Assembly: GCA_001788395.1 (NCBI GenBank)
Contig: MGBT01000079.1
Coordinates: 1 to 37,215 of the forward strand
Length of the DNA: 37,215 nt
Source of the DNA: Candidatus Rokubacteria bacterium GWA2_70_23
Lineage (GTDB): Bacteria > Methylomirabilota > Methylomirabilia > Rokubacteriales > CSP1-6
Direction of reading: 5' to 3'
Positions within the stretch are counted from its first letter, which is position 1. The number at the start of each line of letters is the position of its first letter. The position numbers and the translations under genes were made by a program. The notes beneath the pieces were generated by a model. That model saw only the letters and a program-made list of their open reading frames with translations, had not been told where the DNA came from and searched no databases. Below are positions 1,952 to 31,115 of the stretch, one piece after another.

Positions 1952-2815
1952 GTGGTGCTGGGATATGTCCGAGACGGGGCGCGCCGGCCGATGGCGCGCG
2001 GCACGGTCGAGGTGGTCCGCGAGAAGACAGGATTCTCCTATCTCACCGAGACCGACGCCGAGGGCTTCTACGTCGTTGTCGTCCATTTGCAGGACGGGGA
2101 TCTCCTGGACGCCTTGCGAGTCACGGCAGGGCGAGCCACGATCCGAATCCAGGCCCGGTTCAACCCGCTGAACTCTCGGAGCAATCGAGGGACGAGGGTC
2201 GACTTCACCGGAAGCTCGGCGGTGGAGCGGCAAGAGATATTCGATGCGACGGTCAACTTCACCGAGATGTTCGGAGTCCCGTTGACCATCTACCTGCTGG
2301 CCCCTCTGCTCGGCCTTCCGGCGTCTGCGTTCGGGATGAACGAGAGCCATCTCTGGGCCTTTGCTCTGGATCGCCTCGGGCTGCTCCCGCTCCAGGCCGG
2401 AGTCTACCTGGTCATGACGGTGAGCACCGTCCTCATCGCGGCCGGTCTGTCGCTGCTCGCCGTCGGCTGGGCCACCGTCTATCGGGGACGGGATCGGTTG
2501 GTGACGGACGGTATCTACCGCTACCTCCGGCACCCTCAGTACGTCGGCCTGATGCTGATCATCTTCGGCTTCAACATCATGTGGCCGACTGTCCTCACCT
2601 TCCTGATGGCGCCCGTGCTCATCGTCATGTATGTCCGCCTGGCGCGCCGCGAGGACGAGGAGTTGGCGACGTTCTTTGGCGAGGCGTTCTTGGGCTACGC
2701 CGCTCGGACCCGGGCTTTCCTTCCATGGGGGCGAGGCCGAGCGGTGCTGCCCCGCGGCACTCCGGAACGCCCTCCCCGGGATGCTGAAGCGCTCACGATC
2801 GGGGAACGGGAATGA
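1952..2815 (+). CDS. Chimera: carboxypeptidase-regulatory-like domain fused to ICMT-like membrane methyltransferase
   Basis: The frame opens with GTG directly after the TAA of the signal-peptide frame. Residues 1-~105 form a small beta domain (LGYVRD, GTVEVVREKTG, TDAEGFYVV) like secreted carboxypeptidase-regulatory domains. From FTEMFGVPLTIYLL onward it is an isoprenylcysteine carboxyl methyltransferase-like integral membrane enzyme, with about four helices and the signature GIYRYLRHPQYVGLML. The ICMT part resembles the intact paralogue at 4165-4842 (YAEMYGFPLTIYVL, RHPQYAGIFL), but its first helix is missing. A deletion appears to have joined two genes. The product may be inactive. The ATG of the next remnant overlaps its end. 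Confidence 0.6.
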   Translation: MVLGYVRDGARRPMARGTVEVVREKTGFSYLTETDAEGFYVVVVHLQDGDLLDALRVTAGRATIRIQARFNPLNSRSNRGTRVDFTGSSAVERQEIFDATVNFTEMFGVPLTIYLLAPLLGLPASAFGMNESHLWAFALDRLGLLPLQAGVYLVMTVSTVLIAAGLSLLAVGWATVYRGRDRLVTDGIYRYLRHPQYVGLMLIIFGFNIMWPTVLTFLMAPVLIVMYVRLARREDEELATFFGEAFLGYAARTRAFLPWGRGRAVLPRGTPERPPRDAEALTIGERE

Positions 2816-3346
2816 CGGTGGTGCCCCGCTGGCTCCTGGCTGCCCTCTCCGGGGCCCTGCTGGCCCTGGCCTTTGCCGGCAGTGGCGACCAGAGCTGGCT
2901 CGCCTTTGCGGCTCTGGTGCCGCTCCTCGTCGCCGCCGACGGAGTGGACCGGCGGCGCGCCGGAATCCTGGGCCTCCTCTCCGGGTTGATCTTCTGGCTG
3001 GCGACCATCCCGTGGGTGGCGCAGACGATAGGGGTGGAACGACCGGCTGGGCGGGCTCGGCGTCGCGAGGGCGGTCGTCGGTCTTGCGATCGGCTCGGGC
3101 TGGCTGCTGTCGCCCGCGCGCGAGGGGACGCCTGCGATTCCGGTCGCGCTGGTCCAGGCGAATATCGACCAGGGCGTGAAGTGGGACCCCGCGTATCAGG
3201 GGACGACGCCGGAGGTCTACCGGCGGCTCACGCTGGAAGCGGCGCGCAGGGGTGCCAGTCACATCGTCTGGCCGGAGACGGCGGTGCCCTTCTTCCTCCG
3301 CGCCGACCCCCACTGGCGCGAGGTCGAGCGCATCGCCCACCCTGAA
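2812..3346 (+). pseudogene. lnt: Decayed apolipoprotein N-acyltransferase (Lnt)
   Basis: The first frame reads like the Lnt N-terminus: a membrane helix, GSGDQSWLAFAALVPLL, then GLLSGLIFWLATIPWV. At about 3030 the frame changes, and the sequence resumes at WNDRLGGLGVARAVVG and enters the nitrilase-like domain (VALVQANIDQGVKWDP, SHIVWPETAVPFFLR). The membrane region between these two pieces is missing. After IAHPE (3346) the frame runs straight into PBP2-like sequence. About two thirds of a ~500-residue Lnt is absent, including the catalytic Lys and Cys, so it cannot function. Part of it is readable as one frame, 3176-4117, together with the next remnant. Confidence 0.65.
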
Positions 3347-4143
3347 CGCGATAACGCTGCCGGCCCGCCGCGTCCCGGCGAGCTCGAGGATCGCCAGACC
3401 GTGCTCGCCACGCTTTCGATCCTCCTCAAGATCCCGTACGCGGAGCTCGACCGCGCGCTCGCTGCGCCGCCCGCCGACTCGCCCTGGCCCGTGCGCGTCC
3501 GGCGCGGGTTGACGTTCCAGGAGGTCGCCCCGCTCGAAGAGCGGCGCGCGGGGCTGCCGGGCGTGACGGTAGCGCTCGAGCCCCGACGCGCCTACCCGTC
3601 GGGCCGCTTCGCCGCGCACCTCCGCGCGTGGTTGCCGGGAGATACCGCGAACGTGGCGATCGGCCAGGGGCGCGTACTCGTGACACCGCTCCAGGTCGCG
3701 CGGTTCATGGCGGCGATCGCGAACGGGGGGATCCTCTGGCGGCCTCGCCTCGTCCAGCGTGTCGAGAGCGCCGGCGAAACGGTTCTTTTGGTCGCTCCAG
3801 AGGTCACTGGACACGTGGCGTTCGCTCCCGCCGTTCTCGCCGTCCTCCGTCGAAGTCTCTGGGCCACGCTCGACGACGGTGGGACGGCTTCTGCCGCGCG
3901 GAGTCTCGACCTTCTCGTCGCGGGAAAGACCGGGACCGCACAGATCATCCCGGACAGCGATTCCACCAAGGGGCAGGATCACGCCTGGTTCGCCGGCTAT
4001 GCGGCGGCGGATGCTCCTCGGATGGTGGTGGTCGCCCTGGTCGAGCGCGGTGGGATGGGGGGAAGGTCGCTGCGCCGATCGCCGGCCGCATCTTCCGCGA
4101 GATCTTTCACTCCGTGACTCAGGCCCCCGAGCACCCCGCGTGA
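3347..4143 (+). pseudogene. mrdA: Decayed penicillin-binding protein 2
   Basis: In the same frame as the Lnt tail come pieces of a PBP2: the pedestal region (ELEDRQTVLATLS, RRGLTFQEVAPLEERR, YPSGRFAAH), then a jump to LPGDTANVAIGQGRVLVTPLQVA and the KTG box in VAGKTGTAQ. The transpeptidase SxxK serine region and the SxN box are deleted. Near 4060 the frame shifts again, and the true C-terminus (KVAAPIAGRIFREIF) is read in another frame up to TGA at 4143. The N-terminal membrane anchor is absent. This is a pseudogene made of at least three disconnected pieces. Confidence 0.65.
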
Positions 4144-13082: not shown

Positions 13083-13105
<23 letters not shown>

Positions 13106-13652
13106 CTTTCCCCTCCCGGCCGCTCAGCCTTCCCTGCCGCGCCTCGTCGAGCTTCGCGTGGATGACCTCGGGACCGTCGAGCCCGCCGATGTGCTTGTAG
13201 GTGATGCGCCCGTCAGGGTCGATGAAGAAGGTCTCGGGGAGCCCCCACACCCCGTAGCCGATGGCGATGCGGCTGCCGGCGTCGATCCCGTTGAGGTAGG
13301 TGATGCCGAACTCGCGCAGGAACTCCCGGGCCGCCGCCTCGCGGTCCTGCATGTTGATCCCGAGGAAGACCACGTCCTGGCCCTGGTGGTCCTTCCAGGA
13401 GGCCTCCAGCATCCGCGCCTCGGCCCGGCACGGCGGGCACCACGACGCCCAGAAGTTGAGAAACACGACCTTGCCCCGCAGGTCGGCCAGGCTGAGCTCC
13501 TTGCCGTCGAACAGCTGCACCGTGAACGGCGGGGCCGGGCGGCCGATAAGCGGTGACGGGATCTCGCGCGGATCCCGCGTGAAGCCGTAGGCCAGGACCG
13601 CGATGAGCGGGACGCCCAGCCCGAAGACGATGGCGAGCCGCTTCCAGTTCAT
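13083..13652 (-). CDS. ccmG: CcmG/DsbE thioredoxin of cytochrome c maturation
   Basis: The product has 189 residues, with one N-terminal membrane anchor (LAIVFGLGVPLIAVLAYGF) and a periplasmic thioredoxin domain. The active site is WASWCPPCRAE (Cys72, Cys75). The family-typical GVWGLPETFFIDPDGRI carries the cis-proline, and VVFLGINMQD is also as in CcmG. It passes electrons from the CcdA-type protein to CcmH/apocytochrome. It starts 1-2 nt after ccmF ends and overlaps ccmH. Confidence 0.93.
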
Positions 13653-15619: not shown

Positions 15620-16438
15620 TCAGAGAGCCCAGTACACGAGCGTGTCGTTGACGCCGACCACGAGGAACACGACGCCGGTCGCCCGTGTGAGGATCCGACC
15701 AGTCCGCCCGAGCCGGGCGTGGATGTCCACCGGCGCCCCGGCCGCGAGCAGGACGCCGAGCGTCAGGACCGGCACGCTCGTGCCCACGGCGAACAGTGCC
15801 GGGAAGACCAGCCCCGCGGGGCTCGCGAGCCCCAGCGGGATCGTCAGCCCGAAGAAGAGCCAGAAGAGCGTCGGGCAGAAGGCCAGCGCGAAGGCCCCCC
15901 CCATGAGGAATGCCCCGCCGGTGCCAGACTTCGGCCCGAGGGCCCTGAGCCGCGCCGAGAGCCGCGAGCCGAAGCCGCCCCGCAGGCGCACCACGCCCAC
16001 GAGCGACAGCCCGATCACGAGCAGGACGGGGCCCAGGACGCGCCGGGTGACGACGGCCATGGGGATCGCCGCCTGCTGGAGCCCGGCGCCGAGGGTGAAC
16101 GCCAGGCCGCCCAGCACCGTGTAGACGACCGCCTTGCCGAGCAGGAAGGCCCCGGCCTCCCGGGCCGCCGCGCCGCGGCCGCCCTCGCGCGACAGGTAGG
16201 CCATCGCCGAGGCGTTGGTCGTGATCTGGCAGGGCGCCACCGCCCCGATGAGCCCGAAGAGGAAGGCGCTGACCAGCGGCAGGCCGAGCCACGTGGAGAA
16301 CTGGCCCAGCGGGTCGGCCAGGAGCGCGCTCGGCGTGCTCAGCACCACGTACCATTCGCGCAGGAGCTCCACGACTGGGCCAAGCCTGATCTCGCCGCGC
16401 CCGCGGCCTGGCGCTCCGGCGCCCTCACGCCGGGGCAC
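15620..16438 (-). CDS. CcdA/DsbD-type membrane thiol electron transporter
   Basis: The product has 272 residues and about six to seven helices. The two redox cysteines sit in the typical proline-flanked positions: GAVAPCQITTNA in the first helix and AFALAFCPTLFWLFFG in the fourth. This family moves electrons from cytoplasmic thioredoxin to periplasmic CcmG-type proteins. It lies between the Rieske gene and ccmF in one unit. ATG 16438 overlaps the Rieske stop by 14 nt; a GTG about 22 codons later (VELLREWYVV) is an alternative start. It could equally be labelled a DsbD transmembrane-domain or SafE-like protein. Confidence 0.85.
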   Translation of the reverse strand: MPRREGAGAPGRGRGEIRLGPVVELLREWYVVLSTPSALLADPLGQFSTWLGLPLVSAFLFGLIGAVAPCQITTNASAMAYLSREGGRGAAAREAGAFLLGKAVVYTVLGGLAFTLGAGLQQAAIPMAVVTRRVLGPVLLVIGLSLVGVVRLRGGFGSRLSARLRALGPKSGTGGAFLMGGAFALAFCPTLFWLFFGLTIPLGLASPAGLVFPALFAVGTSVPVLTLGVLLAAGAPVDIHARLGRTGRILTRATGVVFLVVGVNDTLVYWAL

Positions 16439-17184: not shown

Positions 17185-17430
17185 TTACGTCCCCTCGCGC
17201 CCCAGGCGACGGCGCAGGGCTGCTTCCTGGACCCGGAACTTGAAGGCGATCCGGCCATTGACCAGGACCAGCGGGATGCGCTCCGCGTAGATGGCGTACA
17301 GCTCCGGGGTGGACTCAATGTCGATCTCGTGGAGATCGAAAGGGATGTCGCGGCGGACCTTGAGGAGCGTCGCCTTGACGTCGTCGCAGAGACAGCAGTC
17401 GCGCTTGCCGTAGACCTCGACGCGGATCAC
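17185..17430 (-). CDS. Glutaredoxin-like (DUF836) protein
   Basis: This 81-residue protein has the fold of short glutaredoxins: a first strand IRVEVYGKRD, the active-site region DCCLCDDVK (Cys12, Cys15, with an extra Cys13), and FDLHEIDIESTPELYAIY before the cis-proline segment RIPLVLVNG. It is cytoplasmic, since no signal is seen. It probably reduces disulfides or relays electrons for the thiol/selenol proteins of the same operon. Its ATG overlaps the cyclase stop (ATGA). It is the last gene of the long 26.0-17.2 kb operon. Confidence 0.85.
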   Translation of the reverse strand: MIRVEVYGKRDCCLCDDVKATLLKVRRDIPFDLHEIDIESTPELYAIYAERIPLVLVNGRIAFKFRVQEAALRRRLGREGT

Positions 17431-18362
17431 GCGGTGACCCTGTACACGCCGTGGAGCCCCGCGAAGCCCTTGAGCGCGCAGAACCCCACGGAGTCGAGCC
17501 CGATGCCCCTGGCCCGCGCCTCCTCGGCCGCCGCCTCGTCGAGAAAGATGCGGTCGTCTTCGGGGATCTCCACCTCGTTGGCTGCGCCCCCCACCTGCAC
17601 GAAGGCGGCCGGCGTCACTCCTTCGAGGCGGAAGGCCTTGTTGATCACCGCCCCGTGGCGCGCCCCACGGCCGTCGAGGAGGATCTCGCCGTAGGTGATC
17701 GCCGCGCGCACTCTCGGCGGCGGCGCCGGGGCCAGGTCCGCGGACCGCGCCGCGAGATCCCGCAGCAGCGCGAGCGCCGTCTCGATGGCGCCAGCCACCG
17801 AGACGAAGGTCATGAAGCAGCCGTCACCGGTGCTCTCGGTGTACGTCAGCCCGTGGCCCGCGGCTACGGCCAGCGCCCGATCCCTCACGACCGTTCTGGC
17901 CCTCATCGCCAGGCCGTCGCCGTAGTGGGTGGCGAGATGCGTGGACTGCACCAGGTCAACGACCAGGACCGCTTCTGTCACGACGGCCGCTCGCACGGTC
18001 TGGCGGCGCCACCGGGCCCGGGCCAGGCGATAGGTGATGAAGCCGCCGCCGGCCGTCGCCGCCCCCACGAGCAAGAGGAATGTCGATTCGAGATAGAACG
18101 GCACCGGAACGGCCGGGTGGGCCATGGACTCCGCCATCTGGGCCCGCGGGCTCGCCACCGCTTCGGGCCGGGCTGCGGGCGGGGCCGGCGGCGCCTCGCG
18201 CCGCGGCTCCGGGTTCGCCGGGCCGCGGGGTCCTATCGAGCCTCCCATGCCCGGCCCCATCCCGGTCCCCATCTGGGCCGAGGCCGGGGCCGGAAGGAGC
18301 GCCAGCGCGACGAAGGTCGCGAGGACGCCTACGCGGCGAGGGCGCCGACGCGCCACCCGCAC
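17427..18362 (-). CDS. Class III nucleotide cyclase with signal peptide and membrane anchor
   Basis: About 311 residues. A signal peptide (VGVLATFVALALLPAPASA), a Met/Gly- then Pro-rich periplasmic stretch, and a membrane helix near 92-113 precede a class III cyclase domain. Metal-binding Asp136 is in VVDLVQSTHLA and Asp180 in STGDGCFMTF; the Asn/Arg pair is in VINKAFRLEG. Glu176 stands where adenylate cyclases have the adenine-selecting Lys, which is the guanylate cyclase choice, so cGMP production is possible but unproven. The frame opens at GTG 18362; the GTG at 18356 has better GGAGG spacing. It starts 31 nt after the selenoprotein stop and overlaps the glutaredoxin gene. Confidence 0.75.
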   Translation of the reverse strand: MRVARRRPRRVGVLATFVALALLPAPASAQMGTGMGPGMGGSIGPRGPANPEPRREAPPAPPAARPEAVASPRAQMAESMAHPAVPVPFYLESTFLLLVGAATAGGGFITYRLARARWRRQTVRAAVVTEAVLVVDLVQSTHLATHYGDGLAMRARTVVRDRALAVAAGHGLTYTESTGDGCFMTFVSVAGAIETALALLRDLAARSADLAPAPPPRVRAAITYGEILLDGRGARHGAVINKAFRLEGVTPAAFVQVGGAANEVEIPEDDRIFLDEAAAEEARARGIGLDSVGFCALKGFAGLHGVYRVTA

Positions 18363-18393: not shown

Positions 18394-18870
18394 TCACCGC
18401 GGCCCCCAGTAGGAGCGCACGATCAGCCGGCGCTCCGGAGCGGCCGGATCGTTGGTCCGTAGCGGCGTGTGGAACTCGTGGGCGCCGCCCATCCCCGCGT
18501 GCATCGTGAACTGCATCGACAGCGTCGTGGACCCGCCCGGCTTGATGGTCGTCTGCCCGACGACCGCCTCCGGCGGTCAGCACCCCTCGACGGCCTTGAC
18601 CCGCGGCACCTCGGCGATCTTGAGGGTGCCGTCTCCCGCGTTGGTCAGGGTGAAGACCACCCGGGCCGGCGCCTCGAATGGAAGGTCGCCGAGCTCCACG
18701 ACCTCCCGATCCACGACGAGACGCGGCGCCCCACTCAGGGTGCCGAGGCTTTCCGACTGCCACCAAAAGGTGCCCGCTCCCGCGACGATCGCGACCAGCA
18801 CCCCCACCACCCCCCACCGCCGGCGCCCGCGGCGCGGCGCCGGCGGCTCGACCCTCTTCTTCGTGCTCAT
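18394..18870 (-). CDS. Probable new selenoprotein: anchored beta-sandwich protein with Cys-Sec motif
   Basis: The ATG at 18870 overlaps the SHOCT stop (ATGA) and follows GAGAGGAG. A cytoplasmic Arg-rich start, one membrane helix (VVGVLVAIVAGAGTFWW) and a DUF1573-like beta-sandwich follow (RLVVDREVVELGDL, VFTLTNAGDGTLKI). Codon 98 is TGA, directly after VKAVEGC. Reading on, the frame gives PPEAVVGQTTIKPGGSTT, then LSMQFTMHAGMGGAHEFH and PERRLIVRSYWGPR before a real stop at 18394. This completes the same domain: strands, TNDP turn and closing strand. A perfect stem-loop begins 11 nt after the TGA. The motif would be Gly-Cys-Sec-Pro-Pro, a redox pair in the periplasm. A plain nonsense mutation is the alternative. 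Confidence 0.72.
18547..18579 (-). promoter_or_regulatory. SECIS-like element after the in-frame TGA
   Basis: On the minus strand, the TGA (18579-18577) is followed by 11 nt and then a perfect 7-bp stem GGTCGTC / GACGACC closing the 5-nt loop GGGCA. The distance from TGA to loop is 18 nt and the loop begins with G, both within the usual pattern for bacterial SECIS elements. A competing hairpin (GACCGCC-GGA-GGCGGTC) starts at the TGA itself. Confidence 0.6.
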
Positions 18871-19172
18871 GGCTCTCCTCTCCGTGTGGGCCCCGTGGAT
18901 CGCCACGGGGCCTCGTTCTCCGCTGCCTGCAGGTCGCGTCTCTTCTCCTCGAATTCCTCCCGATCGATCTCGCCTCGAGCGTAGCGGGTCCTGAGGATCT
19001 CCAGGGCCCGGTCGTCGTCTCCCGGCGGCCGACGCGACTGTCCCTGGTCCCAGAGCCAGCGCACGGCGAGGACGGCCGCGACGATGACGACCACCCAGAC
19101 GAGCAGCATGCCGAGCCCCGCACCGCCCATCCCGAATCCTCCCCATCCCATCATGCCAGCGCCGGGCATCAT
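18867..19172 (-). CDS. Small membrane protein with SHOCT domain
   Basis: This 101-residue protein begins MMPGAGMMGWGGFGMGGAG, a Met/Gly-rich leader, then one helix (LGMLLVWVVVIVAAVLAVRWL), a short linker and a C-terminal SHOCT motif (ALEILRTRYARGEIDREEFEEKRRDL region). SHOCT segments often end small membrane proteins and are thought to mediate oligomerisation. The ATG at 19172 is preceded by GAGGGG. Its TGA overlaps the start of the selenoprotein, so the two are translationally coupled and may form one membrane complex. Confidence 0.8.
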   Translation of the reverse strand: MMPGAGMMGWGGFGMGGAGLGMLLVWVVVIVAAVLAVRWLWDQGQSRRPPGDDDRALEILRTRYARGEIDREEFEEKRRDLQAAENEAPWRSTGPTRRGEP

Positions 19173-19191
19173 GGCAATCCCCCTCGCCCCT

Positions 19192-19815
19192 TCATCGGGC
19201 CACGATGAGTTTAATCCAGTCAGAGAACACGCGCCGTTCCTCGACCACGACCAGGCCGGCCTCGCGGATGGTGTCCAGCGTGCGCCGGTTGAGATGCGGC
19301 CCCATGACACGGCTGACGATCGGATCCAGCAGGTCGAAGAGCCTCCCCAGCCACCCGCTGGGCCGCATGTGCTCGAGCAGGAGCACCTCGCCCCCGTCCT
19401 TCAGGACCCGCCGCACCTCCCTCAGGCCGCGGCGGGGATCCGGCACGCTGCAGAAGACGCAGGTGGCGACCACGGCGTCGAAGGCGTGATCCCTGAAGGC
19501 GAGATCCTCGGCATCCGTCAGCACGAGACGGCGCCCGCCCCCACGACGGCCGGCCTTCTCGGCTGCCCGCGCGAGCATCCCCGGACTCAGATCGGACGCC
19601 ACGATGACGGGCCCCGCCGGATAATACGCGATGTTCTTCCCGGTCCCCGCCCCTACCTCGAGGACCCGTCCCTCCGGCACCCGCGCGAAGATCCACTCAC
19701 GGCCCCGCTCGAAGCCGAGCATGCGCTCCATCGGCGCGGTCAGGCGATCGTAGAGCCGCGCCTGCCGGCTCCAGCGCCTGAGGGCGCGTCCCGTCCCCTC
19801 CGGAGATGTCGGCAT
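19192..19815 (-). CDS. SAM-dependent methyltransferase (UbiE/PmtA-like)
   Basis: The product has 207 residues, a class I Rossmann methyltransferase. Motif I is VLEVGAGTGKNIAYYP, the acidic residue is in VIVASDLSPGML, and the post-I region is LTDAEDLAFRDHAFDAVVATCVFCSVPDP. The C-terminal part LLLEHMRPSGWLGRLFDLLDP and the ending FSDWIKLIVAR resemble bacterial phosphatidylethanolamine N-methyltransferase/UbiE-like enzymes. The substrate could be a lipid or quinone; the context does not decide. It follows the cupredoxin by 8 nt and precedes the SHOCT gene in the same operon. Confidence 0.82.
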   Translation of the reverse strand: MPTSPEGTGRALRRWSRQARLYDRLTAPMERMLGFERGREWIFARVPEGRVLEVGAGTGKNIAYYPAGPVIVASDLSPGMLARAAEKAGRRGGGRRLVLTDAEDLAFRDHAFDAVVATCVFCSVPDPRRGLREVRRVLKDGGEVLLLEHMRPSGWLGRLFDLLDPIVSRVMGPHLNRRTLDTIREAGLVVVEERRVFSDWIKLIVAR

Positions 19816-19823
19816 CGTCCCCC

Positions 19824-20222
19824 CTACGGCTCCACCACCAGGGTCCCCATCAACGCCATGTGCAGCGGGCTGCAGCGGACGCTGCAGTAGAACGGGAACT
19901 CCCCGGCCCGTTCCGCCGTGAACTCGACCACCTTCGTCGTCCCGGTCTTGATGGCTCCCGCGTTCACCCCGAAGTGGAGAAGCTGGAAGCCGTGGGTCAC
20001 GTCCTCCGCGAGGATCCTGAGCCGCACCGTCTGTCCCTGCTTGACGACGATCCGCGCGGGGCTCCAGCCTCCGTGCTCCACCGTCCGCGCGACCAGGAAG
20101 ATCTCGCCGGACGCGTCGGGCCGGCTCCGGAGGGCTTGATACGAAAAGACCGCGGCGGGGACACCGACCAGGATGGCCAGGACCACCGCCAGGGCGAGCC
20201 GCTCCGCGCTCTTGATCGCCAT
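19824..20222 (-). CDS. Membrane-anchored cupredoxin with CuA-like motif
   Basis: The product has 132 residues. One N-terminal helix (LALAVVLAILVGVPAAVFSY) is followed by a cupredoxin domain. The ligand set resembles COX2/NosZ CuA: His77 in DVTHGF, then FYCSVRCSPLHMALM with Cys113, Cys117 and His121. In canonical CuA the Met follows His by three residues (NosZ HMEM); here that position is Leu124 and Met is at 125, so the site may be altered. Its ATG overlaps the stop of the cupredoxin-polyferredoxin gene (TGATG). It probably exchanges electrons with that protein at the periplasmic face. Confidence 0.8.
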   Translation of the reverse strand: MAIKSAERLALAVVLAILVGVPAAVFSYQALRSRPDASGEIFLVARTVEHGGWSPARIVVKQGQTVRLRILAEDVTHGFQLLHFGVNAGAIKTGTTKVVEFTAERAGEFPFYCSVRCSPLHMALMGTLVVEP

Positions 20223-22036
20223 CACCCAAGGTACAGGGCCAGGAACGCCCACGCCAGGAGCCCCAGGAAGCCCGCGAGCGGCACGAGGCCGCGCCGGGCG
20301 GCCTCCGCCTCCCCCAGCGCGTCCCTGACGATCTCGCGGGCCGCACGGACCGAGCCCCAGAGCCCCGCCAGAAGCAGGCCGAGCTGGGCCCAGGGCAGAA
20401 GCCCCAGGGGCACCCACGTCCACGTGGTTTCGCGTGTCCCGAAAAGGTCCCAGCCCCAACCAAGCGGATCGGACAGGACCCGCGGGATATAGGAGAGGTT
20501 CGGAAGCACCACCGCCAGCGTGAAGGCCATCCATGCCGCCAGGCTCAGAGGGATCAGGGCGTACGCGTAGGCCACGAAGAGCTTCCCCAGCCGCAACGAC
20601 GGCGCGCCCGCCAGCGCCCGCGACAGCCACGCCGCCACGAGATGCAGGCCCGGAAGCACGCCCAGGACCGCCCCGAGGAAGAGCCCCGAGTAGAACAGGA
20701 ACTCGACGGGCCCGTCGAGGTTGGCCCACGACTTGATCCAGCCCCACGGCCCGAGCTTGATCACCGAGTGGGCGAGGGCGGTTCCGAGGAGGAGGAGCGC
20801 GATCCACGCCTCGTCCGCCCGTGCCCCCCGGCTCACGCGCAGGTCCGCGCCGAAAAGCCTGAGGCTGAGGGCGAGATTGTCGTGGGGACAGGCCTTCAGG
20901 CACTCGGTGCACAGCAGGCAGTAGGTGTTCCGCATGAGCCCGCTCCCCGGGAACTGGAAGGTCGGGCAGGGGTAGCCGGCGCCCCCGCGGAAGCACGGCT
21001 TGTCCCGGCATGCCCGGCAGACATCGAGGTCCCGCGCCCGCAGCTCGATCGGAGCCGCCAGCGCGTAGACGCCGAGGAGGCCGCCCACCGGGCAGAGGTA
21101 GCGACAGAAGACCCGCCGCTCGAAGAGAAGGTGGGTGACGAGGGCGACCGCCGCGAGCCCGAGGAGCAGCGCCGCCGTGACGATGGGGCGCGTCGTCACG
21201 ACAAGTCCGAACAGGACGAGCAGGAGGAGGCCGCCGAAGGCCGGCCAGAGGTTCCGGAGCGCCTTCGGCCAAGGCCACCCGAGGCCCCAGCCGCGCATCC
21301 TCCGCTCCACGATCGCGCCCCGCGCCAGCCACTCGCCGGGGGCCGGGAGCGGGCACATGGCGCACCAGGCTCGCCCTCCGAGCGGGATCAGGACCAGCAC
21401 GAGGAGGCCCCACCAGGCCAGCCAGACGAAGATCGTGGACACGTTCATGGCCCCGGTCGCCGTCCCGACGAGCCCGGCCAGGACGATGAGGGTGAAGACG
21501 AGCAGGTTCGGGGCGATGAGCGCGAACTGGAAGGGGCGCCGCGTGAGGAGCCAGCCGAGCGGGCGCCAGCGGAGCAAGTCGCGTCGCATGCCCGGGCGCG
21601 CCAGGCCAGCCGAGGCGAGGAAGCCCACGACCAGCATCAGGCCGCCCCCCCAGAGGGGCCAGCGGTTGGGCTCCACGATGATCTCGCCCACCATGAAGGG
21701 GTGGAGCGGCCCGCAGATGACGGAGCAGCGATAGCGGATCTTCCCCGGCCGCCCGGCCTGGACGGTCACGCGCACCTCCCGACCCGGCAGGATCGTCGCG
21801 TCCACCCCCGTCCCCTCGACGGCGAAGCCGTGGGTGATGTCGAGGGAGCGGATCCTGAAGGTCACCCGGTCCCCGGCCGCCACGCTCACGCGCGGAGGGG
21901 AGAAGGCGAACTTCTGAACGGTCAACGGCACGTCCACCTCGCGGCCGCCCCGCGGGACGGCGAAGAAGCCGGCGAGGAGCAGGCCGGCCCCCGCGAGGGC
22001 CACGAGCCGCACGACCGGCGGGAAGCGCCCGGCCAT
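20222..22036 (-). CDS. CuA-like cupredoxin fused to a NapH/NosR-type iron-sulfur membrane protein
   Basis: The product has 604 residues. After an N-terminal helix, residues ~35-122 are a cupredoxin with a complete CuA ligand pattern: His69 in DITHGF, and CSVICGPLHPFM with Cys104, Cys108, His112 and Met115. Then come membrane helices with the NapH/NosR signatures WCAMCPLPAPGE (225-228) and FCRYLCPVGG (311-315). A ferredoxin-like segment follows with two cluster-type Cys sets (CRACRDKPC; CLLCTECLKACP), then five more helices. NapH/NosR proteins carry electrons between quinol and periplasmic or iron-sulfur partners. Fusion to a CuA-like domain is unusual. It sits between the YVTN propeller and a second cupredoxin with almost no spacing. 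Confidence 0.85.
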   Translation of the reverse strand: MAGRFPPVVRLVALAGAGLLLAGFFAVPRGGREVDVPLTVQKFAFSPPRVSVAAGDRVTFRIRSLDITHGFAVEGTGVDATILPGREVRVTVQAGRPGKIRYRCSVICGPLHPFMVGEIIVEPNRWPLWGGGLMLVVGFLASAGLARPGMRRDLLRWRPLGWLLTRRPFQFALIAPNLLVFTLIVLAGLVGTATGAMNVSTIFVWLAWWGLLVLVLIPLGGRAWCAMCPLPAPGEWLARGAIVERRMRGWGLGWPWPKALRNLWPAFGGLLLLVLFGLVVTTRPIVTAALLLGLAAVALVTHLLFERRVFCRYLCPVGGLLGVYALAAPIELRARDLDVCRACRDKPCFRGGAGYPCPTFQFPGSGLMRNTYCLLCTECLKACPHDNLALSLRLFGADLRVSRGARADEAWIALLLLGTALAHSVIKLGPWGWIKSWANLDGPVEFLFYSGLFLGAVLGVLPGLHLVAAWLSRALAGAPSLRLGKLFVAYAYALIPLSLAAWMAFTLAVVLPNLSYIPRVLSDPLGWGWDLFGTRETTWTWVPLGLLPWAQLGLLLAGLWGSVRAAREIVRDALGEAEAARRGLVPLAGFLGLLAWAFLALYLG

Positions 22037-28456: not shown

Positions 28457-28605
28457 AGAGAGCGGGGATCGTCGTCGTGGAGGATCCGCACCGCCGGCGT
28501 GTGGAGGTCGTCGAACTGGCCGGAGGTGGCCGCCCAGATGAAGACGGCGAGCGCGACCGCCGAGAAGAGGAGTGCCAGCGGGAGGAGGATGAACATCACC
28601 GACAT
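28453..28605 (-). CDS. ccoS: CcoS, cbb3 oxidase maturation protein
   Basis: This 50-residue protein starts at ATG 28605, inside the end of ccoI. It has a single helix ([21 protein letters not shown]) followed by the CcoS hallmark [15 protein letters not shown] and a short acidic tail (HDDDPRSL). CcoS is needed for loading copper and haem into cbb3 oxidase. Length, topology and position after ccoI are all as expected. Confidence 0.92.
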
Positions 28606-31115
28606 GGCATCGCCTCCCCGCCCCCGCCGCTGAACATCCGGGCGCGGTACGAGCTCACGATCACCGTGAGCGAGCTCAGGGGCATGAGGACGGCGGCCAC
28701 CACGGGATTCAGGAGGCCCGCCATGGCCAGGGACACGCCGACGGCGTTGTAGAGGAGCGAGAAGATCAGGTTCCGCCGGACGACGCCCATGGTCCGGTGG
28801 GCGCCGTCGAGAAGGTCGGCGACCCGTCCCACGCCAGGGCGCGTGATGTACACGTCGGCCGCGGCCAGCGCCGCCTCGGCCCCACCATGCACCCCGACGC
28901 CGACGGTGGCCGCCGCCAGCGCGGCGGCATCATTCACCCCGTCGCCCACCATGATCACGGGGCCGTCGTTCCGATCCGTCGTGACGACCTGGAGCTTTTC
29001 CTCGGGAGAGACGCGCCCGCGGCAATCGGCGCGGTCCACACCGAGCTGCTGCCCCGCCGCTGCCACCACCGCGGCATGATCTCCGGACAGCACGCCCACT
29101 CGCCAGCCGTGAGCCCGTACTCGATCAAGGGCGCTCTGCGCGTCATCGCGCAGCGGGTCGCCGAAGGCCGCGAGGGCCACGGCCCGCCCGTCCACCGCGA
29201 CCAGCACCGGTGACAGCCCCTCGGCGCTCAGCGCCTCCGCGCGCTCGCTGATCCCGAGGGGAATCGCCTCCACCCTGGCCGCGACCCAGTCGTGAGCCCC
29301 CACCACCACGCGCCTCGATCCCAACCGCCCCTCGATCCCGGCCCCCTGGGTCTCCACGATCTCGACGGGCTCGACGCTGCCCGGGGCCTGGCGATCCCCG
29401 ATCGCTGCCACGAACGCGCGAGCCAGCGGATGAGCGGAGTGCGCCTCGACGGCAGCCACCAGCGGCCTGGCGTCCTCGTCTCCCCACCACTCGACCAGTG
29501 CCGCCCGCCCCGTGGTCAGCGTGCCGGTCTTGTCGAGCCACATGCGCCCCGGGCGGGTGAGCTTCTCGAGCACATCGGCGCCCTTGATAAGAATGCCCGC
29601 CCGGGCCGCCTGCGCGATGGCGGCGCTGACGGCGAGCGGCGTCGCCAGCCCCAGGGCGCAAGGACAGGTGACGATGAGGAGCGCCACGGCGTGGTCCAGC
29701 GCCCGGGCAGGATCGAGGCGCGCCCACAGCGCGAAGGTCGCGGCCGCCAGGACGAGGACCACCAGAACGAAGCTACCCGAGAGGCGGTCAGCCATCTGCA
29801 CGATGGGGGCGCGCCGGCGCGCATGCTCCTCCACGAGCTTCATGAGCCGGCCCACCCGTGTCTCCTCCCCTGCCCGTTCCACGCGGACCTCGATGCGGGA
29901 GGAGAGATTCACCGTGCCGGCGTGGATGGAGTCTCCAGGGCCGATCGCCACGGGCCGTGACTCGCCCGAGAGGAGTGAGACGTCGAGCGCGGAGCGCCCG
30001 CGCTCGACGACGCCATCGGCAGGGACCAGCTCTCCTGCCCGGACCTCCACGAGCGCGCCCGCGGCGAGGGCCTCGAGCGGGACCTCGCGGACCGTGTGGC
30101 CCTCGATGAGCCGCGCCGCGCTGGGCGCCAGCGAGGCCAGCAGCTCCGTCGAGTCGGCCGCGGCGCGCTGCTGGCGGCGCTGGAGATGGCGCCCCACCAG
30201 GAGGAGGAAGATCAGCGTGGTCACCGAGTCGAAGTAGACCTCACCCGTCCCGGCGAGCGTGTTCCAGGCGCCGTGGAAGAAGCCAGCCAGGAGGCCGATG
30301 CTGATCGGCAAGTCCATGTGCAGCGTCCGCACCCGGACCGCCGCCCAGGCGCCTCGGAAGAAGATGCCGCCGCCCCAGATCACGGACGGCACCGTGATGA
30401 GCAGGCTCGCCCAGCGGAACAGCGCGGCGAGCTCCGGCTCCATGCCGTGGAACATGCCGCCGTAGAGCGCGAAGGCGATGGCCATCACGTTGCCCGCCAC
30501 GGCCCCGCTGAGCCCGATGCGCGCGAGCATCGCCCGATCCTCCCGGCGCCGCTCCTCCTGGGCGCGCAAACCCCGGGAGGGATGAGGGGCGTAGCCGAGG
30601 GAATCCAGGAGGCGCGCCACCGCCGCCAGCGTCACCGCCCGCGGGTCCCAAACCAGGCGGCAGCGGGAGCGCGGCAGATCCAGGCGGATCTCGACCAGCC
30701 CGGGACAGAGCCGCGGCAGCTTCTCCACCAGCCACACGCAGGCCGAGCAGTGTACGCCCTCGAGGTACAGCTCGGTCTCCATGAGCCCGCCGGGTGCCGG
30801 CCAGCAGGAGCGCTCCCTGAAGCCCGGATCGTCCATCTCGGCATAGGACTTGTCGGTTGTCCTCGCCGCCGCCGGCGTCCGCGGGAGCGCGAGCGACGCC
30901 TCGTCTGCCGAGGCGCGGAGAGCGTAGTAGCGCTCGAGCCCGTGCTCGTGGAGTGCGGCGTACACGGCGCGGCAGCCGGCGCAGCAGAATTGCCGCGCAG
31001 CGCCTTCGTCGTGCATCCCGCGAGGCACGGCAAGCCCGCAGTGGGCGCATGGAGCCGTCTCCGGCGCCGGAGGCTCCAGCGCCAGGCGCCGAGTCCCCAC
31101 CTCAGCGGTGAGCAT
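28596..31115 (-). CDS. ccoI: CcoI/FixI copper-transporting P1B-type ATPase
   Basis: The product has 839 residues. The N-terminal zinc-ribbon-like part ([14 protein letters not shown]) is typical of CcoI. It is followed by a heavy-metal-associated domain with GVHCSACVW (Cys123, Cys126). Eight helices include the ion-path motif TCPCALG (484-486). The catalytic Asp528 is in DKTGTLTTG, and the hinge is [12 protein letters not shown]. It supplies copper to the periplasmic side for cbb3 assembly. It overlaps the SafE-like gene upstream by 14 nt and ccoS downstream by 10 nt. Confidence 0.95.

Follow-up and report, generated by a model that had tools for sequence, protein, structure and literature searches.

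The window, the whole stretch of DNA that was analysed, comprises 37,215 nucleotides of contig MGBT01000079.1 from Candidatus Rokubacteria bacterium GWA2_70_23. A minus-strand gene starts with an ATG at 18870, carries an in-frame TGA at codon 98 (18579-18577) and closes with a TGA at 18396-18394 that acts as true stop. Residues 1-97 finish with VKAVEGC, and the same frame continues after codon 98 with PPEAVVGQTT...SYWGPR. A first-pass annotation had described a DUF1573-like frame up to VKAVEGC, the TGA at codon 98 and the continuation in frame; all were found at 18394-18870, and these coordinates hold, with the correction that the gene lies on the minus strand. The features of the gene and of its surroundings are listed in Table 1. 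Between this gene and that of the glutaredoxin-like protein lies a reading frame for a 311-residue protein (17427-18362, minus strand), which is cyclase-like by eye and had no Pfam match. At 2812-4117 of the window (plus strand), LNT_N (apolipoprotein N-acyltransferase N-terminus) and a frame encoding a PBP dimerisation/transpeptidase domain overlap, which looks like truncated or rearranged genes.

Table 1. Features of the predicted selenoprotein gene and of the neighbouring genes (positions in the window).
Feature	Position	Strand	Description	Basis
Predicted selenoprotein gene	18394..18870	-	158 aa; membrane anchor and DUF1573/Ig-like domain, motif E-G-C-U-P-P	translation, Pfam, relatives, model
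Predicted membrane-anchor helix	18748..18828	-	residues 15-41	AlphaFold2 secondary structure, hydrophobic sequence
Cys97	18580..18582	-	invariant; adjoins Sec98 on the N-terminal side	two alignments
In-frame TGA	18577..18579	-	codon 98, predicted to be read as Sec	TGA/Cys codons across GTDB loci, tree changes
Predicted SECIS hairpin	18547..18565	-	7-bp stem GGTCGTC/GACGACC, loop GGGCA, starts 11 nt after the TGA	covariation, RNAalifold, fold z
FTMHAGMGGAHEF segment	18472..18510	-	M123, M127 and H131 invariant, H124 nearly so	alignment conservation
SHOCT-domain membrane protein	18867..19310	-	stop overlaps selenoprotein start (ATGA)	Pfam SHOCT, 36.2 bits
Cupredoxin	19824..20240	-	COX2/CuA-like C-terminal motif (CSVRCSPLHMAL); approximate start	Cupredoxin_1, COX2 matches
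CuA-like cupredoxin fused to Fer4_5 iron-sulphur membrane protein	20222..22036	-	CuA-like motif (CSVICGPLHPFM)	COX2, Cupredoxin_1, Fer4_5 matches
Glutaredoxin-like protein (DUF836)	17185..17430	-	downstream	Pfam Glrx-like, 57.4 bits
CcdA/DsbD-type membrane thiol transporter	15620..16438	-		DsbD_2, 59.3 bits
TlpA/CcmG-like thioredoxin	13083..13652	-		AhpC-TSA, Redoxin matches
Heavy-metal (CcoI/CopA-type) P-type ATPase	28596..31115	-	~10 kb away	E1-E2_ATPase, HMA matches

The read-through protein was matched by Pfam to DUF1573 (PF07610; residues 53-128, 29.6 bits, gathering score 26.1) and to a HYDIN/VesB Ig-like domain (residues 49-151, 32.6 bits, gathering score 25.5). Both matches span codon 98 above their gathering scores; the domain thus continues across the TGA. 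In comparisons of the window with seven relatives, changes in the codons 3′ of the TGA were mostly at third positions (dN 0-0.16 versus dS 0.12-0.68), and the downstream frame is, judged by these rates, under purifying selection. The standard code reads TGA as a stop, and the gene also terminates in TGA; codon 98 might accordingly be a true stop that leaves a 97-residue product and, 3′ of it, either decaying remains or an independent frame. Purifying selection beyond the codon speaks against this reading, as do the retention of the TGA over dozens of genomes, its exchange for Cys codons, the covarying hairpin and the Sec machinery described below, and it was judged highly improbable.

Of the 119 related genomes searched, 21 have a homologue that carries a single in-frame TGA, and the Gly-Cys-Sec-Pro-Pro site is invariant in 17 aligned sequences of this kind. 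A GTDB-wide scan returned 43 loci from Methylomirabilota/Rokubacteria, from Chloroflexota and from one MAG labelled Deltaproteobacteria. At the position of codon 98, TGA was present in 36/43 and TGC or TGT in 6/43, one further locus being cut off before the site. All six Cys-codon loci (L063, L068, L069, L074, L077 and L079) belong to Chloroflexota and supply the Cys-98 (GCCPP) homologues for which the first-pass annotation had advised a search. Across the relatives and the GTDB loci the TGA is flanked by invariant Gly-Cys and Pro; Pro-Pro follows in all but one, the TGA member L090 (G-C-U-P-S). On a tree calculated with the Sec column masked, the Sec/Cys state switches at least three times. 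The window is a single contig from an assembly of 243, and the TGA might be a sequencing or assembly error for TGC or TGT; an assembly error at 18577-18579 had been named beforehand as a possible objection. But the TGA recurs at the identical place in dozens of independent genomes, assembled independently in two phyla, together with a covarying hairpin. This explanation is already refuted and was given a negligible probability.

Two MAGs deserve separate mention. The Anaerolinea MAG CH2 carries the Cys form (L068:6001-6336) and the Sec form (L081:6001-6480) on two contigs, and its Cys copy retains most of the SECIS stem and resembles a recent Sec-to-Cys change. In the MAG labelled Deltaproteobacteria (L050, JAUYMQ010000189.1) the gene is 85% identical and its neighbourhood is of the Rokubacteria type; this MAG is probably a misnamed or mixed bin.

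The perfect 7-bp stem with a GGGCA loop, 11 nt after the TGA, is present exactly as the first-pass annotation had described it. The 37-nt hairpin stretch gave an MFE of -15.8 kcal/mol (z -2.34), and 1/200 shuffles folded equally well. Among 35 distinct Sec sequences the stem was 94.3% paired, with two-sided compensatory changes in five of the seven pairs, and 0/500 shuffles matched the observed pairing and compensatory values; the inner six pairs were recovered independently by RNAalifold. Loop position 2 was G in 39/39 distinct Sec sequences, and all six inner pairs formed in 37/39. The published bSECIS model specifies a loop of 3-9 nt, a stem of 4-16 bp, a G in the first two loop positions, a UGA-to-loop distance of 16-37 nt and an MFE of <= -7.5 (PMC13188914). 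The window hairpin, with its 5-nt loop, 7 bp, GG, 18 nt and -15.8 kcal/mol, lies within all of these limits, and its stem covaries. An Rfam scan of the window returned no match. Among the Cys homologues, at least two inner pairs are lost in L063, L069 and L074; all six are kept, counting G-U, in L077 and L079, and 5/6 in L068. The idea that the hairpin is lost in every Cys homologue is contradicted by the last three: since L077 and L079 form it and L068 is near-complete, retention of the stem is not exclusive to Sec forms.

A search for selA, selB, selC and selD had also been suggested, and counterparts of all four were found in the same genome. SelA and a 633-residue SelB-like GTPase are neighbours on contig C154, which starts within a tRNA gene with the anticodon loop CTTCAAA (L134:1-73, G000:C154). 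The portion of this tRNA that lies on C154 does not differ from the corresponding 3′ portion of the complete tRNA-Sec (TCA) in a relative (G001), and the distance from tRNA-Sec to selA is similar in the two. The genome's own SelD (L019:1501-2439, G000:C99) is a Sec-type protein too (SYAACAG-U), and its TGA is followed by a strong hairpin. All matches to RF01852 in the genome were sub-threshold, and those that ARAGORN could name were ordinary tRNAs; the true tRNA-Sec is the truncated one with which C154 starts.

Every Chloroflexota genome with the TGA form gave a strong tRNA-Sec match and all but two a SelA match. SelA was not found in the TGA-bearing genomes G023, G033 and G086 (68-81% complete), nor in G137 and G138, in which tRNA-Sec is present; in TGA-bearing G141, the MAG of L050, neither SelA nor tRNA-Sec was found. 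The idea that genomes with the Cys form are those without Sec machinery was rejected: it fits only G124 (the genome of L069; a weak SelA-like match, no strong tRNA-Sec), and the other Cys genomes keep the machinery.

A reassignment of TGA in the lineage, for example to Trp or Gly, would look alike at a lone in-frame TGA. TGA, however, also serves as the true stop of this gene, Cys rather than Trp or Gly stands at the homologous position, and tRNA-Sec, SelA, SelB and SelD are present in the genome; the chance of reassignment is minute. The conserved TGA, the Cys homologues, the covarying hairpin and the Sec machinery together indicate a real selenoprotein gene, and on this sequence evidence UGA codon 98 is almost certainly decoded as Sec. 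Decoding would be performed by SelB, directed by the SECIS hairpin 11 nt downstream. The first-pass annotation had called the product a probable selenoprotein; this is supported, and none of the three outcomes that it had set against itself (a genome without Sec machinery, homologues without Cys at position 98, the assembly error) occurred.

DUF1573 already holds a selenoprotein family, OS_HP2, with the motif UGC (PMC2398784, PMC9312934, PMC13188914). The first-pass annotation knew of no selenoprotein here; DUF1573 is not new to Sec, and what is new is the Sec position and the subfamily. OS_HP2 shares with the window protein the DUF1573/Ig-like domain and a single Sec in the same motif loop. 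That the protein is merely another OS_HP2 could be argued from the common Pfam family and from a profile alignment with a set made up of an OS_HP2-like protein and ordinary DUF1573 proteins, which had a probability of 98.8%. Against this, the window protein scored 24.2 bits with the OS_HP2 profile NF041425, the cut-off of which (100 bits) was passed by no searched genome of the phylum, and the motif of the window protein and its relatives is G-C-U-P-P (G-C-U-P-S in L090) instead of U-G-C. With G-C placed on G-C in the profile alignment, the OS_HP2-type Sec lies over E95 and Sec98 over the T after C-G-C: the OS_HP2 Sec is the first residue of C-G-C, where Glu stands here, whereas the Sec described here follows the second Cys. 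An earlier multiple alignment was shifted by some columns, and the two Sec positions coincide in neither alignment. The Pro-Pro and FTMHxGMGGxHxF segments also mark the GCUPP group against OS_HP2. Identity with OS_HP2 was considered very unlikely, also in view of genome G067, which carries both types. Beside a GCUPP protein it encodes an OS_HP2-like DUF1573 protein with S-U-G-C-T and an in-frame TGA (L120/L117, G067:C69:6489-6776, minus strand), that is, two Sec positions of one family in one genome.

Ordinary DUF1573 proteins (PF07610, C-G-C-T) are alike in fold and domain, with matches over the gathering score, but those aligned here (L045-L047) are without Sec, GCxPP or the Met/His segment. 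Of their C-G-C-T motif the window protein keeps G-C; the first Cys is absent and T is replaced by Sec. A 2026 inventory of 119 families and subfamilies, in which differing Sec positions define distinct subfamilies, has no G-C-U-P-P DUF1573 entry (PMC13188914); Deng et al. 2026 (as cited in PMC13188914) reported 63 predicted selenoproteins in one Methylomirabilota MAG. No literature naming the exact E-G-C-U-P-P motif was found, and a listing in Deng 2026, Zhang & Gladyshev 2007 or Haft & Tolstoy 2025 is possible. Given Sec at another position, a score far under the OS_HP2 cut-off and an inventory without G-C-U-P-P, the GCUPP proteins very probably form a distinct, new DUF1573 selenoprotein subfamily.

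The AlphaFold2 model is confident (mean pLDDT 88, rising to about 95-98 within the Ig domain) and has one N-terminal helix followed by a beta domain, with position 98 in a loop between short strands and M123, M127 and H131 after strand 114-121. From the Ig topology of the model, the Cys-Sec and Met/His motifs would be close in space. The closest solved folds were 2qsv (E 3.3e-7, 26% identity) and ASH/PapD-like domains, and a PDB sequence search gave mainly Ig/ASH matches. These HYDIN/CFA65/VesB-like Ig (ASH/PapD-like) domains, PDB 2qsv among them, are closest in fold but belong mostly to other cell contexts, and to our knowledge a Cys-Sec pair has not been described in them. The N-terminal helix would anchor the product in the membrane, so placed that the Ig-like DUF1573 domain probably faces the periplasm; its motif loop, canonically C-G-C-T, would present a vicinal Cys-Sec pair in E-G-C-U-P-P. 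M123, M127, H131 and H124 with C97/U98 are proposed as Cu(I) ligands, a metal role that we infer.

Neighbouring genes were counted by tblastn with the named neighbours at 44 loci (43 GTDB loci and the window), with kinship ignored and short contigs included. Cupredoxin-type proteins were found at 14-18 loci, the Fer4_5 membrane protein at 16, heavy-metal P-type ATPases at 13, PCYCGC proteins at 12 and CcdA/DsbD at seven. Whole genomes of 4.4-7.7 Mb hold 8-17 P-type ATPases of all kinds each, from which ~0.03 would be expected by chance in 12 kb. In the window itself, two cupredoxins with CuA motifs, one of them fused to the Fer4_5 protein, are encoded upstream of the selenoprotein gene. The operon partners named in the first-pass annotation fared unequally: CuA-like cupredoxins are more widespread, but the SHOCT partner occurs at 8/44 loci and the glutaredoxin partner at 6/44, nearly all Rokubacteria-like. 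About a third of the 44 loci have no copper gene, and many of these are short contigs. Copper neighbours are absent from a Chloroflexota group (L075, L078 and L085); L075 and L085 have a PAS sensor kinase, and L075 a cytochrome c552/NapC pair. PCYCGC proteins (PF13798, OS_HP4 family) lie beside the gene at L069:6448-6924, L087:3889-4440 and ten other loci. This PCYCGC/CYCXC family has known Sec members and is a recurrent neighbour, but the protein is unrelated, and where its motif was seen the neighbour has Cys, not Sec.

Tentatively, the product may be a periplasmic selenol/thiol protein that serves copper (CuA-type) sites. Cys97-Sec98 with M123, M127 and H131 (and H124) would act on copper sites outside the cytoplasm, in one of two ways: the Cys-Sec pair and the Met/His set could hold Cu(I), or a low-potential selenol/thiol could reduce the Cys pairs of the adjacent CuA-type cupredoxins before copper uptake. 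The electrons would come from a CcdA/TlpA-type system, in which the CcdA/DsbD-type protein is a candidate for supplying the periplasm with reducing power. Elsewhere, CuA sites have two kinds of helper, a thiol reductant that acts on their cysteines and a chaperone for Cu(I) (Sco, TlpA, pCuAC) (PMC6696091); a membrane-anchored Cys-Sec protein with Met/His residues could be either. The recurrent cupredoxin, Fer4_5, P-type ATPase and PCYCGC neighbours and the invariant M123, M127 and H131 are consistent with a copper role; the L075/L078/L085 group without copper neighbours argues against it. pCuAC and Sco resemble the proposed protein in their working, with an extracytoplasmic Met/His or Cys/His copper site serving CuA proteins, but the pCuAC motif H(M)X10MX21HXM (PMC6696091) and CxxxC are absent from the window protein. 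Known copper chaperones did not match the domain by sequence (Pfam) or among the fold matches listed, and this holds for the pCuAC family in particular.

The same selenoprotein could instead be a general periplasmic thiol/selenol oxidoreductase, or a peroxide or electrophile scavenger with a Cys-Sec selenenylsulfide switch, the copper genes being near only through a shared respiratory gene region. Bacterial selenoproteins are for the most part regarded as redox proteins (PMC13188914), genes for CcdA, TlpA/CcmG and glutaredoxin lie nearby, and L075, L078 and L085 manage without copper neighbours. A general redox role, however, leaves unexplained the invariant Met/His segment and the fact that genes for cupredoxins, heavy-metal ATPases and PCYCGC proteins recur nearby in two phyla, and the domain is not thioredoxin-like; we regard this role as conceivable but rather doubtful. 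Taken whole, Sec decoding combined with the proposed periplasmic work at copper sites is the best explanation and somewhat probable. The stronger statement, that a periplasmic Ig-fold protein with Cys-Sec and Met/His residues binds Cu(I) or prepares CuA-type sites and that Sec arose at least twice in DUF1573, at different loop positions, is open to considerable doubt. No description of such a copper-handling use of selenocysteine was found in the literature.

Gene finders would stop at the TGA and so lose the C-terminal half of the protein with its conserved Met/His segment. DUF1573 selenoproteins as such are known from OS_HP2; the Sec position and the subfamily are new, and one small domain is now seen with Sec at two different positions. 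The GCUPP family extends across Methylomirabilota and Chloroflexota, with natural Sec/Cys switches and one MAG that holds both forms. These switches would allow a direct question to be put: what a possible copper site gains from having Sec in place of Cys.
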